This document shows, piece after piece, positions 23,636 through 27,811 of a stretch of 64,000 nucleotides of DNA. The stretch is taken from contig NZ_CP041636.1 in NCBI RefSeq assembly GCF_007197755.1, positions 3,446,001 to 3,510,000 on the forward strand. The letters run 5' to 3'. Position 1 is the first letter of the stretch. Each line of letters opens with the position of its first letter. The translations under genes were made by a program, and so were the position numbers. Below the pieces are notes generated by a model. The model was not told the origin of the DNA, did no database searches, and saw nothing but the letters and a program-made list of their open reading frames with translations. Origin of the DNA: Ferrovibrio terrae (GTDB taxonomy: Bacteria > Pseudomonadota > Alphaproteobacteria > Ferrovibrionales > Ferrovibrionaceae).

Positions 23636-23689
23636 GAGGTCGTCATTGAGCGGGGCACGTGATATAGACGCAGTAGATCATATGACTGC

Positions 23690-23760
23690 GGCGGCTACGC
23701 AGAAAGCGAGGTGCCGAAGAACTGTGCGAGTACAAGCCGTGGTATACTTGCTAGCTATTT
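23690..23760 (-). pseudogene. Decayed N-terminal fragment of an MFS transporter gene
   Basis: Twenty bases at 23705–23724 are identical to 19814–19833 inside the intact MFS gene, in the same orientation. Translated on the minus strand the fragment reads [15 protein letters not shown] then a stop, matching [15 protein letters not shown] near the MFS N-terminus. Stops and a small deletion follow, so it cannot encode a transporter. It is probably the trace of a second, lost MFS gene that once stood here. Overlapping ORFs of 72–81 codons in both strands of this gap look spurious. Confidence 0.5.
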
Positions 23761-23942
23761 TCCGTCTGTTCTCATTCTCGCTCAATCCCGTGTCCCGGAC
23801 AGTCTGACTCAGGGTATCATTTTGGAAGCCATCGCTTCCACTCAAGTCCCTCGCGATAAATTCAAACCTAATATTGTAGGCGGGATAAGTCCTAAACTCT
23901 TCTTCATAAAATCGGACAATCAACTATAGATTGTCTGTAAAT

Positions 23943-23950
23943 GAGGGGGG
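23943..23950 (+). promoter_or_regulatory. Strong ribosome-binding site of the helicase-nuclease gene
   Basis: GAGGGGGG lies four to five bases before the ATG at 23955. It decides this start over an in-frame TTG at 23931 that has no such site. Confidence 0.8.
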
Positions 23951-23954
23951 CACA

Positions 23955-26834
23955 ATGAAAAATCACTTGCCAGAAAATCATGGATTGTCGCCGGCTATTC
24001 AGGCTACTGCCGAACTTATGCCGACTGAAAATGGCGAACCTTCATTAACAGACATTCAATTTGAAGCGTTGGAAAGAGGAATTGCTACAGGCCGAAGCGC
24101 CCTTATAAGCGCGCCTACATCCACAGGTAAAACGCTTATTGGATGGTGGACAATTGCTTCAGCCATCCAGAGCGGAGCGCGAGCTGTATACCTAGTATCT
24201 CATCGTGCGCTAGCGAAGCAGAAATTCGTAGAAGTCCAAACTCTCTTTAACAATCCAAACTTTGGGATCGACGCAAGCTCAATAATATGCGCCACAGGAG
24301 ATGGAGTTGAGGACGCGTCTGGACGGAAGGTAAGCGCACCCCTCACCGCAACTATTCTTATCGCCACATACGAAAAGTTTCTTGGATGCCTGTCCTCAGG
24401 CGGCGCTCCGAGAGATTTAACAAACACCTGTCTGGTCTGCGACGAAATACAAATACTAGGAGATAAAAGACGCGGTCAGAATATCGAGCTTCTCTTAACC
24501 TTACTGAGAAAGGCTAGATGGAAGCAGTTCATTGGCCTGTCTGCAGTCTTAAGTGAAAATGACGCGAATCACATTTCCGACTGGCTCGACCTCGAACTAA
24601 TAAGAAATCCTATTCGAGAAAAAGCTCTACAAATTGAATGTCGTTCAAACACGGCAGTTTACGACGTAGCCTTAGCGCCAGGCAGAGACGGCGCACCCCA
24701 AATACAACAGGTGGTACGGCAAAGAGCAACAAACCGAATTGTCACTGAACTTTTGGCCAACCGAGACCACTATCCGGTGATAGTGTTCTGCATGAGAGTT
24801 GACGACACGTACAACTTATCGTCGGAGTGGATCGCCGGAAAGCCTATTACGAACCAAGTTCGCGTCCCTGCTGGACTGGATATTAATCCGGATTTAATCA
24901 GAGCTTTGGAGCGTCGATGCGCCTTCCATAACTCCGAACTAAGTGAGGACGAAAGAAATTTCGTTGAAGCTAAGTTAGCAGAGAATAGTGTCGATGTCGT
25001 CTATGCGACTAGCACATTAGCGGCTGGTGTCAATTTCCCCCTTGGAAGCGCGGTTTTCGCTTCTTGGAGACGTTGGAATTCGGAACGTCGAGTTTACGAA
25101 CCAATTGGAAGAGCAGAATTCCAGAATATGGCTGGGCGAGTGGGACGCATGGGCCAAGCCGCTCGTGAAGCGAAGGTGATTATAGCAGTGGAGGATGACG
25201 CTCCCATTATGAGCGCCTTAGCACTTATAAACTTCAACGAACAAGAGGCGATAGGGATTGGAATTACACCTGATGATTTTGGCTCGTTAACCCTCCAAAT
25301 ATTTGCGGGAAAGCTTTGCGCAACACGTGCGGATGCTTTTGCTCTGCTAGAATCTAGTTTAAGCGCCGAGCGCGAAAGATCACGGAATGCTCAAGGGGTA
25401 CAACACTGGGAAGAGCATCTTAACGGACACATAGATCGTTTAATTAATGCCGGCTGCCTCATCGAAGCGCGAGGACGTTTAACAACAAGTGCGTTCGGAT
25501 ATGCCGTTGCACAGTCAGGACTCAAACCTGAAACCGCCCTCTACTTCATAAACGGCCTTGTCGAATCTGGGGCGCAACTAGTGGCAATGCTGCCGCAAGA
25601 TGATGAATCTGATGGAGAAGACGACCTCCTTTTCGTGCTGGCACACGCGGCATTGAGTTCTCCGGAATTTAATTATGATGGCGGTCGGCCAACACGATAC
25701 GTTAGTTGGCGTGTGTCACAGCCGAATTTATTGCCGAACGATTACGCTCGTCGCCTCGATGCCGTACTATTCCATCGTCCATGGATGGGTGATGTCTCCG
25801 CCGCAAATGGTGCCCTAATTATAACCAAGCGATCTACCGGCAGTATTCGCCGCGACGCAGATATGCCAGCTCAAGGCATACGCATGGGGGTGGCACAATC
25901 TCTGTGCACAGATGCAGCTTGGATATTGACAGGTATATCGGAGATTTTAGCCGCCACAACATCGCCAACTTTGGCAGACGAAAGCAAACCAGAAGCATTG
26001 AGGGGTGGAGGAGTAGAGGTTGAGGCTTTACGTCGCCTCGCCCGACCAATACGGAGAGTAGCCACAAGAATTAATGCGGGCCTGCCTGGGAACGTATTAT
26101 GGATGACGGCTTTGGAACTCCCTGGAAGGCGCAAACGGTTGTCACGACTCCAAATCCTTTCATTGTCAGATTACAACTTGGTCCGACCTATCGATTTAAT
26201 GAATGGAAATGAAGCGGCAGACGCCAGTAGGCGCGAAGCATTGGATGCGGTCGACAATCCAGGAATTGCAAACAATGTTCGCGATGCCGCGAAGAGGTGG
26301 AAAGTCAAGGACAGGGAGTTTTGTCTGCAACTTCACCGAAGGCGCGCTGAACGCTTCCACGGCGTAGACATCATCAACAATCTATATTTACGCCGAGGAG
26401 ACGAGTTTGAGGCTTCCTTTGAGGACTGTTTGCAGTTCGCCTCAATAAATTTTGAGAATCTAGATGGCCGCAAGAAACAAGCACACCCTGATTACTTAGT
26501 TACCATTGAAAAGTATCCGCCTCTTGTTGTTGAATTAAAGACCCGACAGACCGATACGGACTTGGTTCCGTTAAATTCAGCGATGGAGGTTTTGGGCGCA
26601 TCTGAAGTAATCGGCCTTCGGGAGAACTTCTGCGTTACATTGTGCAGCCCTGGTGTCGAACCTAGCGTCCCCGGCATTATAGAGCGCTGCGGGCGACTGT
26701 GCGTCGTTGATGTTTCAGATTTTTGTGAAGCTATACTTCGTTTGCGAGAAGGGACGCTCACCCGTGACGAATTTTACAACTGGCTAACTACGCCTGGGAT
26801 AGCACTGATCGAAGACCTTCCGTATGGGCGTTAG
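23955..26834 (+). CDS. Ski2/Hel308-like helicase fused to a PD-(D/E)XK-type nuclease motif
   Basis: The 959-residue protein has a complete superfamily 2 helicase core: Walker A APTSTGKT (53–60), motif II DEIQ (163–166), motif III GLSAVLSE (from 194), motif V YATSTLAAGVNFP (from 350) and motif VI QNMAGRVGRMG (390–400). Motifs V and VI closely follow the Ski2/Hel308 pattern. A winged-helix-like segment follows (about 485–530, RLINAGCLIEARGRLTTSAFG). After a long central region without recognised domains, the C-terminus (about 810–870) shows EFEASFE, then HPDYLV with D846 and VELK with E860 and K862, the layout of a PD-(D/E)XK nuclease. A single-protein DNA or RNA surveillance nuclease is inferred. 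It is functionally reminiscent of Hachiman, which pairs a separate helicase and nuclease, but homology was not tested. The gene is low-GC and stands alone. Confidence 0.8.
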   Translation: MKNHLPENHGLSPAIQATAELMPTENGEPSLTDIQFEALERGIATGRSALISAPTSTGKTLIGWWTIASAIQSGARAVYLVSHRALAKQKFVEVQTLFNNPNFGIDASSIICATGDGVEDASGRKVSAPLTATILIATYEKFLGCLSSGGAPRDLTNTCLVCDEIQILGDKRRGQNIELLLTLLRKARWKQFIGLSAVLSENDANHISDWLDLELIRNPIREKALQIECRSNTAVYDVALAPGRDGAPQIQQVVRQRATNRIVTELLANRDHYPVIVFCMRVDDTYNLSSEWIAGKPITNQVRVPAGLDINPDLIRALERRCAFHNSELSEDERNFVEAKLAENSVDVVYATSTLAAGVNFPLGSAVFASWRRWNSERRVYEPIGRAEFQNMAGRVGRMGQAAREAKVIIAVEDDAPIMSALALINFNEQEAIGIGITPDDFGSLTLQIFAGKLCATRADAFALLESSLSAERERSRNAQGVQHWEEHLNGHIDRLINAGCLIEARGRLTTSAFGYAVAQSGLKPETALYFINGLVESGAQLVAMLPQDDESDGEDDLLFVLAHAALSSPEFNYDGGRPTRYVSWRVSQPNLLPNDYARRLDAVLFHRPWMGDVSAANGALIITKRSTGSIRRDADMPAQGIRMGVAQSLCTDAAWILTGISEILAATTSPTLADESKPEALRGGGVEVEALRRLARPIRRVATRINAGLPGNVLWMTALELPGRRKRLSRLQILSLSDYNLVRPIDLMNGNEAADASRREALDAVDNPGIANNVRDAAKRWKVKDREFCLQLHRRRAERFHGVDIINNLYLRRGDEFEASFEDCLQFASINFENLDGRKKQAHPDYLVTIEKYPPLVVELKTRQTDTDLVPLNSAMEVLGASEVIGLRENFCVTLCSPGVEPSVPGIIERCGRLCVVDVSDFCEAILRLREGTLTRDEFYNWLTTPGIALIEDLPYGR

Positions 26835-26836
26835 CT

Positions 26837-27811
26837 CTAAATGTACTGAACCTTCGCCCCGCCTGATCCGCCGCCTGCATCCCCCACCGCGCTCGCCGCC
26901 ATGCGCAGCACTTCCAGATAGCCGCCGCGCAGCTCCATCTGCTCGCGCAGGCCTTTCGCGATCAGCACACGATGCGCCGCCGGCAGTTTCCAGCACGGCA
27001 GACTGAGCAGCAGGTGATGCTCGAGGTGGTAGTTCACCCAGTAGGGCGCGAGCAGCAGCCGCGCCAGCGGGTTCGCGTAGGTCGTGCGCGTGTTACGCAA
27101 CGGGTCGTCGTTGTCGGGCACCACGGCATGTTCGGCGATGTTGCGGATGCGGCTGACCAGCTGGTACCAGGTGAGCAGCGGCAGCAGCCACAGCGCCGGA
27201 TAGAGCCACCACAAACCAACGGCGCTCATCGCCATCCACATCAGCGCATTGGTGATGACGAAGCCGACCAGGCCGCCCTGTTTCAGGCGCAACCAGCGTT
27301 CCGCCCATGACAGGCCCGCCTCGCGCCAGATGGCCATGATCTGCTGTTTGCGCCGCGTGAGGCCGGTATTGCCGGTGATGTCGCGCCAGATCTTGCGCCG
27401 CAGGCTCTGGCGGCTGATCGGGAATGGCGCCGAGAGCACCAGGTCGGGGTCGTCGGCCTGCTGGGTATGGCGATGATGCTTGAGGTGATACGGCCGGTAG
27501 AGATGCAGGTCGGTGCCGACCGGAAAGGCGCAGAGCCACTGCCCGGCGAACTCGTTCAGCCGCCGCGTTTTGAACAGCAGGCCGTGGGCGGCATCATGCA
27601 TCAGGATGGCGAGGCCGAGCTGCCGCCCGCCGATCACCATCACGGCCACAAGGAAGGTCAGCGGATTGGGCAGCCAGACGAAGAGTCCCATGGCAAGGGC
27701 GATCAGCGCCCAGGCATGCAGCACCAGATACGCGCCCATCCAGTCCGAGCGCTGGCTCAGGCGTCTGATCTCGTCCGGGGTGAACACCTGCCGCGCCGTC
27801 GCCGCTGCCAC
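26837..27811 (-). CDS. Membrane fatty acid desaturase
   Basis: The 324-residue membrane protein has the three histidine boxes of the di-iron desaturase/hydroxylase family: HDAAHG (about 72–77), HLKHHRH (about 109–115) and HLEHHLLLS (about 260). Four membrane spans flank them. The start is GTG at 27811 with AGGA nine bases upstream. Its stop codon is only two bases from the stop of the convergent island gene, and its last codons (KVQYI) are AT-rich, so the island edge may have replaced its native C-terminus. The lipid position it desaturates is unknown; ring hydroxylation of carotenoids is an alternative for the family. Confidence 0.87.
   Translation of the reverse strand: MAAATARQVFTPDEIRRLSQRSDWMGAYLVLHAWALIALAMGLFVWLPNPLTFLVAVMVIGGRQLGLAILMHDAAHGLLFKTRRLNEFAGQWLCAFPVGTDLHLYRPYHLKHHRHTQQADDPDLVLSAPFPISRQSLRRKIWRDITGNTGLTRRKQQIMAIWREAGLSWAERWLRLKQGGLVGFVITNALMWMAMSAVGLWWLYPALWLLPLLTWYQLVSRIRNIAEHAVVPDNDDPLRNTRTTYANPLARLLLAPYWVNYHLEHHLLLSLPCWKLPAAHRVLIAKGLREQMELRGGYLEVLRMAASAVGDAGGGSGGAKVQYI

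Follow-up and report, generated by a model that had tools for sequence, protein, structure and literature searches.

What does a solitary gene of low guanine-plus-cytosine content (GC), encoding a helicase joined to a nuclease, do among the metabolic and regulatory genes of a bacterial chromosome? The question is raised by a 959-codon open reading frame on the forward strand of a 64,000-nucleotide stretch of the Ferrovibrio terrae genome (contig NZ_CP041636.1; hereafter the window), which runs from an ATG at 23955 to a stop at 26834. The original prediction saw in this gene a helicase-nuclease fusion that is a candidate antiviral system and could be a compact version of Hachiman. It is close to certain that a Hel308-like helicase and a FokI-type nuclease share one chain, and a role in defence against viruses or plasmids is probable. 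Taking the evidence together, we think it fairly likely that the gene is a one-gene defence system that has spread horizontally and is sited in a chromosomal defence hotspot. The earlier claims of a helicase-nuclease fusion, a foreign segment and a likely role in defence were upheld; the compact Hachiman was not. The idea also withstood the two conditions named in advance as refuting it, a C-terminus lacking a nuclease fold and homologues confined to housekeeping contexts.

The translation contains the complete motif set of superfamily 2 (SF2) helicases, and motif II has the form DEIQ, both as originally claimed. In addition to the Walker A motif and motif II listed in Table 1, the motifs SAV (residues 196-198), ATSTLAAGVNFP (residues 351-362), and QNMAGRVGR (residues 390-398) are present. 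Pfam models matched in the order DEAD (8.7e-20), Helicase_C (3e-6), and ResIII (2.7e-5), with no Pfam match past residue 400. The top NCBIfam match was an archaeal-type DNA helicase model (residues 25-539; 166.7 bits, with the cut-off at 887) and the Hel308 model itself scored 105.7 bits; given these scores, the first far under its cut-off, we use the wording Hel308-like. The best PADLOC models, HamB (104.7 bits) and PDC-M23B (103.6 bits), did not extend beyond parts of the helicase. When a profile built from seven family members was compared with known structures, Hel308/Hjm came first (E = 7.2e-38, 133.1 bits), with HamB at 2.9e-15 and 58.3 bits.

Structural comparison gave the same ranking. 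Nine Hel308/Hjm chains ranked first when the full-length AlphaFold2 (AF2) model was searched with Foldseek, and VIA aligned Hel308 over residues 1-784 (Z 30.3, root-mean-square deviation (rmsd) 4.1, 477 residues). With Hel308 aligned across residues 1-784, the middle of the modelled protein most plausibly comprises the winged-helix and ratchet elements of a Hel308-like motor together with its C-terminal helices. The segment of some 280 residues described earlier as an "uncharacterised middle" thus models as Hel308 domains, and a novel domain was rejected. Hel308/Hjm is the best match to these 784 residues in both sequence and fold, and the protein differs from it in its additional nuclease domain, its bacterial and mobile setting, and its score of 166.7 bits against the 887-bit cut-off.

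The C-terminus had been credited with a D846/E860-x-K862 pattern of PD-(D/E)XK nucleases, and it does model as a nuclease. Residues 786-959, modelled alone with a seven-row alignment, gave a predicted local distance difference test score (pLDDT) of 90.4 and a predicted template modelling score (pTM) of 0.88, with a core of helix-strand-strand-strand-helix-strand. The top three Foldseek matches of this domain were FokI chains (best E = 1.6e-4), and VIA aligned it with FokI over 155 residues (Z 15.6, rmsd 2.5), followed by the R.BspD6I small subunit (10.9), N.BspD6I (10.8), HindIII (9.7), and Hna (8.7; 9yhn). Hjc-type resolvases were among the weaker Foldseek matches, as was, weakly, DdmD (9ki0, E = 0.11). 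Sequence profiles of the nuclease retrieved nothing meaningful from the PDB or Pfam. Six residues (E819, P845, D846, E860, K862, and E878) are identical in all eight unbroken family members, the query included, which share 44-57% identity with the query. Because this invariance is maintained at such identity and accompanies a confident PD-(D/E)XK model, the pattern is beyond chance. By position, D846, E860, and K862 would presumably match D450, D467, and K469 of FokI, an assignment made without residue-level superposition. The two domains have a common fold and PD...E-x-K residues, although the FokI motif is D-x-K where the query has E-x-K, sequence similarity is undetectable, and the query domain is fused to a helicase rather than to a site-specific DNA-binding domain. 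FokI domains cleave duplex DNA as dimers.

Two published systems combine similar activities. In Hachiman (HamAB), a Ski2/Hel308-like helicase likewise works with a nuclease, but HamA is a separate protein; HamB is likened to Hel308 by its authors and recognises 3' DNA ends, its movement activating HamA (PMC12278908). We rejected a compact Hachiman on three grounds: no HamA adjoins the gene (none of six flanking genes matched a PADLOC model), the nuclease fold is of the FokI type, and the helicase profile scores higher with Hel308 (133.1 bits) than with HamB (58.3 bits). A genome-wide search for HamA (PF08878) gave no match, and 14 control genomes were equally silent. HamA was absent from the nuclease fold matches displayed, which does not exclude a similarity to it.

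The second system is Hna (SMa2245 on pSymA of Sinorhizobium meliloti), through which single-protein helicase-nuclease defence is already known (PMC13381803). Like the query, Hna is a single gene and chain with an N-terminal SF2 helicase and a C-terminal PD-(D/E)XK domain, and it is horizontally spread (PMC13381803, PMC12445080). However, Hna has 845 residues and a DinG/ExoDinG-like helicase, compared to 959 residues and a Hel308-like helicase in the query. Membership of Hna was rejected on the helicase, as BLASTP aligned the Walker A stretch alone (E = 0.002) and the best folds are those of Hel308. We assign the query to neither Hachiman nor Hna, although its mode of action may resemble theirs. 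Immune systems built on a sensor helicase and a nuclease, whether separate or fused, form a growing class (Hachiman, AbpAB, Hna, Nhi, and DdmD). Here a helicase of the archaeal/eukaryotic repair type is combined with a FokI-type cutter in a chain of 959 residues, short enough for direct expression and dissection.

The parallel with Hna raises the alternative that the protein defends as an exonuclease that digests single strands processively and is restrained by ATP or dimerisation, rather than as a FokI-like dimeric endonuclease. PMC13381803 describes Hna as a 3'-5' exonuclease on single-stranded DNA (ssDNA) that is inactive as an ATP-stabilised dimer and stimulated by phage single-stranded-DNA-binding protein. 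Abortive infection is a further trait of Hna. The shared domain order in one chain and the presence of the Hna nuclease among the fold matches speak for such a mode of action. Nevertheless, FokI is by far the better fold match (Z 15.6 versus 8.7) and the two helicases belong to different families; we consider the exonuclease mode improbable, while the nuclease fold alone cannot decide between exonuclease and endonuclease.

We then consider the site of the gene. The low GC content claimed at the outset was borne out, with 0.493 in the gene compared to 0.62-0.66 in six flanking genes. Among 2.88-kb intervals across the 64 kb, the five lowest in GC all lie at the gene, and the lowest elsewhere is 0.597. 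Also in line with that prediction, the gene stands alone: by Pfam, its neighbours are metabolic or regulatory, with katG, TetR, and GFA genes on one side and desaturase, M81 peptidase, and ilvD genes on the other. The genome has one copy. A sequence resembling a ribosome-binding site, as predicted, lies just before the ATG; an alternative TTG start at 23931 would add eight residues. Comparison with congener G002, in which both flanks match in order, set the limits of the foreign segment (Table 1). Transposon ends were rejected, as no listed repeat brackets this segment.

Orthologues of the adjoining desaturase, with 77-90% identity, occur in five of nine congeners, and the 3' end of the desaturase gene adjoins different cargo in all five of these readable genomes. 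A PADLOC match was obtained for the cargo in four of the five, compared to none of the six genes flanking the query copy, which served as a control at a threshold of 1e-3. In G004 the cargo is a SIR2-HerA pair (6.9e-153 and 2.5e-160; GC 0.45 and 0.44), the sole clear known system. That of G002 (L087:2411-3511; GC 0.46) is a 366-residue single chain matching the PtuA (AAA) and then the PtuB model (3.4e-17 and 1.9e-13), and that of G001 is a 322-residue AAA protein matching NsnB over residues 3-91 (6.4e-13; GC 0.41). G008 carries a 161-residue protein with no Pfam match and a ThiF/E1-like protein with a PADLOC match to E1-E2 (2.4e-17) (L091:1465-3122; GC 0.46 and 0.57). The 211-residue protein of G005 (L088:2418-3053; GC 0.45) has a readable PD...E-x-K stretch and a Pfam match to DpnII-MboI under the cut-off (0.0032), with no PADLOC match. 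The desaturase 3' site is likely a defence hotspot, and because the same site holds other genes in all five readable congeners, with PADLOC matches in four, a defence role for the helicase-nuclease is likely too. A hotspot at a single locus means that further small systems can be read at this site in related species. Separately, the 366-residue chain of G002 is a possible one-chain Septu-like system.

The helicase-nuclease family is both rare and mobile. A scan by peptide pattern across 84,980 genomes found nine loci, in Paracoccus, Mesorhizobium (two), Marinovum, Sulfitobacter, Asaia, Methylobacterium, Beijerinckia, and Comamonas; since the scan seeks two short peptides, this number is a lower bound. 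Seven of the nine are open to their stop codons, although in the Asaia copy the contig stops short of the 5' end. Within the phylum, the C-terminal profile matched one of 398 sampled genomes, the query's own, and the full family profile matched none of nine congeners, three of which are less than 90% complete. Scans with the whole protein matched 13 of 61 and 103 of 385 genomes, own genome included, the others through short helicase stretches only (best 5.2e-11). Among plasmids, matches over 80% of the query were confined to two conjugative Cereibacter plasmids (47% identity), and C-terminal queries retrieved the same two only; a DNA-level plasmid search gave no match. A phage-borne gene was rejected: none of 50,697 phage records covered 80% of the query, with seven matches to helicase parts only, and two scans of viral contigs, made with short peptide patterns only, found no relative.

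Rather than lying only in housekeeping contexts, the homologues have a mobile-element gene within approximately 10 kb in six of nine lineages, with the Cereibacter pair and the Mesorhizobium pair each treated as a single lineage. These genes include a relaxase and IS256 (Cereibacter), a serine recombinase, integrases (three in Mesorhizobium), and IS66. The proteins of Asaia and Cereibacter are 89% identical in hosts of different families, and identity between the main branches of the family is 44-62%. In a side observation, the Cereibacter plasmids also encode a UvrD/Gabija-like protein (3.7e-24) and a protein with a weak DarT-like match (3.1e-4).

Another alternative is that the main targets of the protein are not phages but plasmids or other mobile elements, as for DdmDE, or that a carrier plasmid uses it against rivals. 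Both conjugative Cereibacter plasmids carry their copy close to a relaxase gene, and the helicase-nuclease DdmD is weakly among the nuclease fold matches. Yet no partner gene was recognised beside the query copy: none of its six flanking genes matched PADLOC, although the presence in that release of a model for DdmE, the Argonaute-like partner in DdmDE, was unchecked. Moreover, the chromosomal copies and the company of SIR2-HerA at the hotspot fit phage defence at least equally well. We regard a mainly anti-plasmid function as unlikely.

More distant relatives place the same type of helicase with another effector. Among 33 plasmid records with weaker matches, nine were opened. Eight of these encode proteins of 1001-1040 residues with an N-terminal caspase instead of the nuclease: PF00656 scores above its cut-off and GHG and DCCFSG are present in all eight, whereas none has a PD/GD...(D/E)xK pattern past residue 780. 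They share the helicase core type of the query at 26-31% identity over 408-578 aligned columns. Their plasmids (L042-L045 and L047-L050) come from Agrobacterium, Bradyrhizobium, Manganitrophus, Hymenobacter, Rhizobium, Fibrella, Bosea, and Rhodopseudomonas, i.e., from Alphaproteobacteria, Bacteroidota, and Nitrospirota. The ninth relative, from Methanomethylovorans, consists of a Hel308-like helicase alone (769 residues). In a tree, the query group and the caspase group fall on opposite sides of a fully supported branch, but the tree is silent on which effector came first, because domain composition varies from row to row, one of the rows is very long, and the tree has no established root.

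That eight of nine relatives have a caspase in place of the nuclease suggests effector swapping on one sensor helicase. More broadly, and tentatively, bacterial Hel308-like helicases might form a platform by which immunity senses abnormal DNA structures, with unrelated effectors fused at either end (a C-terminal FokI-type nuclease or an N-terminal caspase), a generalisation that we would sooner doubt than assert. If true, one DNA-structure trigger would drive either DNA or protein cutting, and a bacterial caspase would be switched on directly by a DNA motor. Together with its caspase-bearing relatives, the query provides a clear way of testing whether infection is sensed by the helicase on its own and whether effectors can be exchanged. 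A literature search, with most subscription papers outside it, returned no fusion of a Hel308-type helicase with a FokI-type nuclease or a caspase and no published name for the caspase-helicases. At two of these loci (L049:4533-9711 and L050:3315-8247), the caspase-helicase is adjoined by genes for TIR-domain proteins, another gene of the caspase family, and a gene for a 201-residue protein, perhaps as a multi-gene system; in Bosea, the 201-residue protein matches PADLOC PDC-S54 (9.7e-33).

The gene might instead encode a DNA repair or recombination enzyme borne by mobile elements, with no immune role: Hel308 and HELQ are repair helicases (PMC12278908), and Hjc-type resolvases are among the weaker nuclease matches. 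The rare and patchy spread (one of 398 phylum genomes and none of nine congeners), the variable site shared with defence genes, and the caspase of the relatives, which has no obvious use in repair, all argue against it and make such an enzyme quite improbable. A non-functional or decaying passenger gene, as might be suspected from the two frame-broken homologous loci (L058 and L060), is highly improbable, given that the query and seven other members are unbroken and keep all catalytic residues with 44-62% identity between main branches.

For the one-gene defence system that we favour, we infer an antiviral role with the following trigger, polarity, activation step, and cell fate. By analogy with HamB and Hna, the Hel308-like motor would patrol DNA and load on 3'-ended ssDNA at forks or broken ends arising from phage or plasmid replication. 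The C-terminal FokI-type domain would be held inactive in the idle state. Once the motor has loaded and moves at the expense of ATP, or once two loaded molecules meet, this domain would be freed to cut DNA, either destroying the invader or killing the cell.

Several observations weigh against this defence reading. Confidence in the full-length AF2 model is modest (pLDDT 67.8, pTM 0.51), with the second RecA-like domain poorly modelled. At the hotspot, G001 and G005 have a left side that is rearranged or in part missing, G004 shares the right flank only, and the G008 contig ends within the desaturase gene. Only one of the five congeners holds a clear known system there; the AAA and ThiF matches are generic, the G005 gene lacks a PADLOC match, and no recognised defence gene adjoins the query copy itself. 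Within the family, two homologues are frame-broken, those of Methylobacterium (L058) and Comamonas (L060), with 31 and 16 in-frame stops in the matched frame; these are decayed copies or assembly errors. Three of the nine lineages (L058, L059, and L060) have no mobile gene among their listed open reading frames, of which one each was profile-scanned at L058 and L060.

Table 1. Features of the helicase-nuclease locus, in window coordinates.
Feature	Position	Strand	Basis
Whole helicase-nuclease gene: Hel308-like helicase and C-terminal FokI-type nuclease, 959 aa	23955..26834	+	sequence, Pfam, family alignment
Putative RecA-like domain 1, residues 1-225 (border approximate)	23955..24629	+	Pfam DEAD 32-202; model
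Walker A APTSTGKT, residues 53-60	24111..24134	+	sequence
Motif II DEIQ, residues 163-166	24441..24452	+	sequence
RecA-like domain 2, residues 226-430 (border approximate; low model confidence)	24630..25244	+	Pfam Helicase_C 313-400; model
Putative winged-helix-like part, residues 431-545 (border approximate)	25245..25589	+	Hel308 structural match over 1-784
Putative ratchet-like part and C-terminal helices of Hel308 type, residues 546-785 (the earlier "uncharacterised middle")	25590..26309	+	fold matches to Hel308
FokI-type PD-(D/E)XK nuclease domain, residues 786-959	26310..26831	+	AF2 model, Foldseek, VIA
E819, invariant helix residue of nuclease domain	26409..26411	+	family alignment
D846, predicted catalytic	26490..26492	+	family alignment
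E860, predicted catalytic	26532..26534	+	family alignment
K862, predicted catalytic	26538..26540	+	family alignment
Ribosome-binding-site-like GAGGGGGG, directly ahead of ATG	23943..23950	+	sequence
Foreign segment at hotspot, GC 0.492	23636..26851	.	homology to congener G002
Perfect 13-bp inverted repeat, terminator-like, 3' of GFA gene; left edge of segment	23593..23635	+	repeat search, congener comparison
Fatty acid desaturase gene, 3' end marks hotspot	26837..27811	-	Pfam, congener orthologues

Two minor observations concern the surroundings of individual copies. A promoter scan of the query was uninformative (none found compared to 3.3 expected by chance); right before the ribosome-binding site lies a 7-bp palindrome with a loop of seven bases (window 23915-23935), which might serve as an operator or form a hairpin. 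The region upstream of the Paracoccus copy (L052:6630-9491) encodes two proteins with no Pfam match and a RES-domain protein (7.7e-18), possibly another toxin or defence operon.

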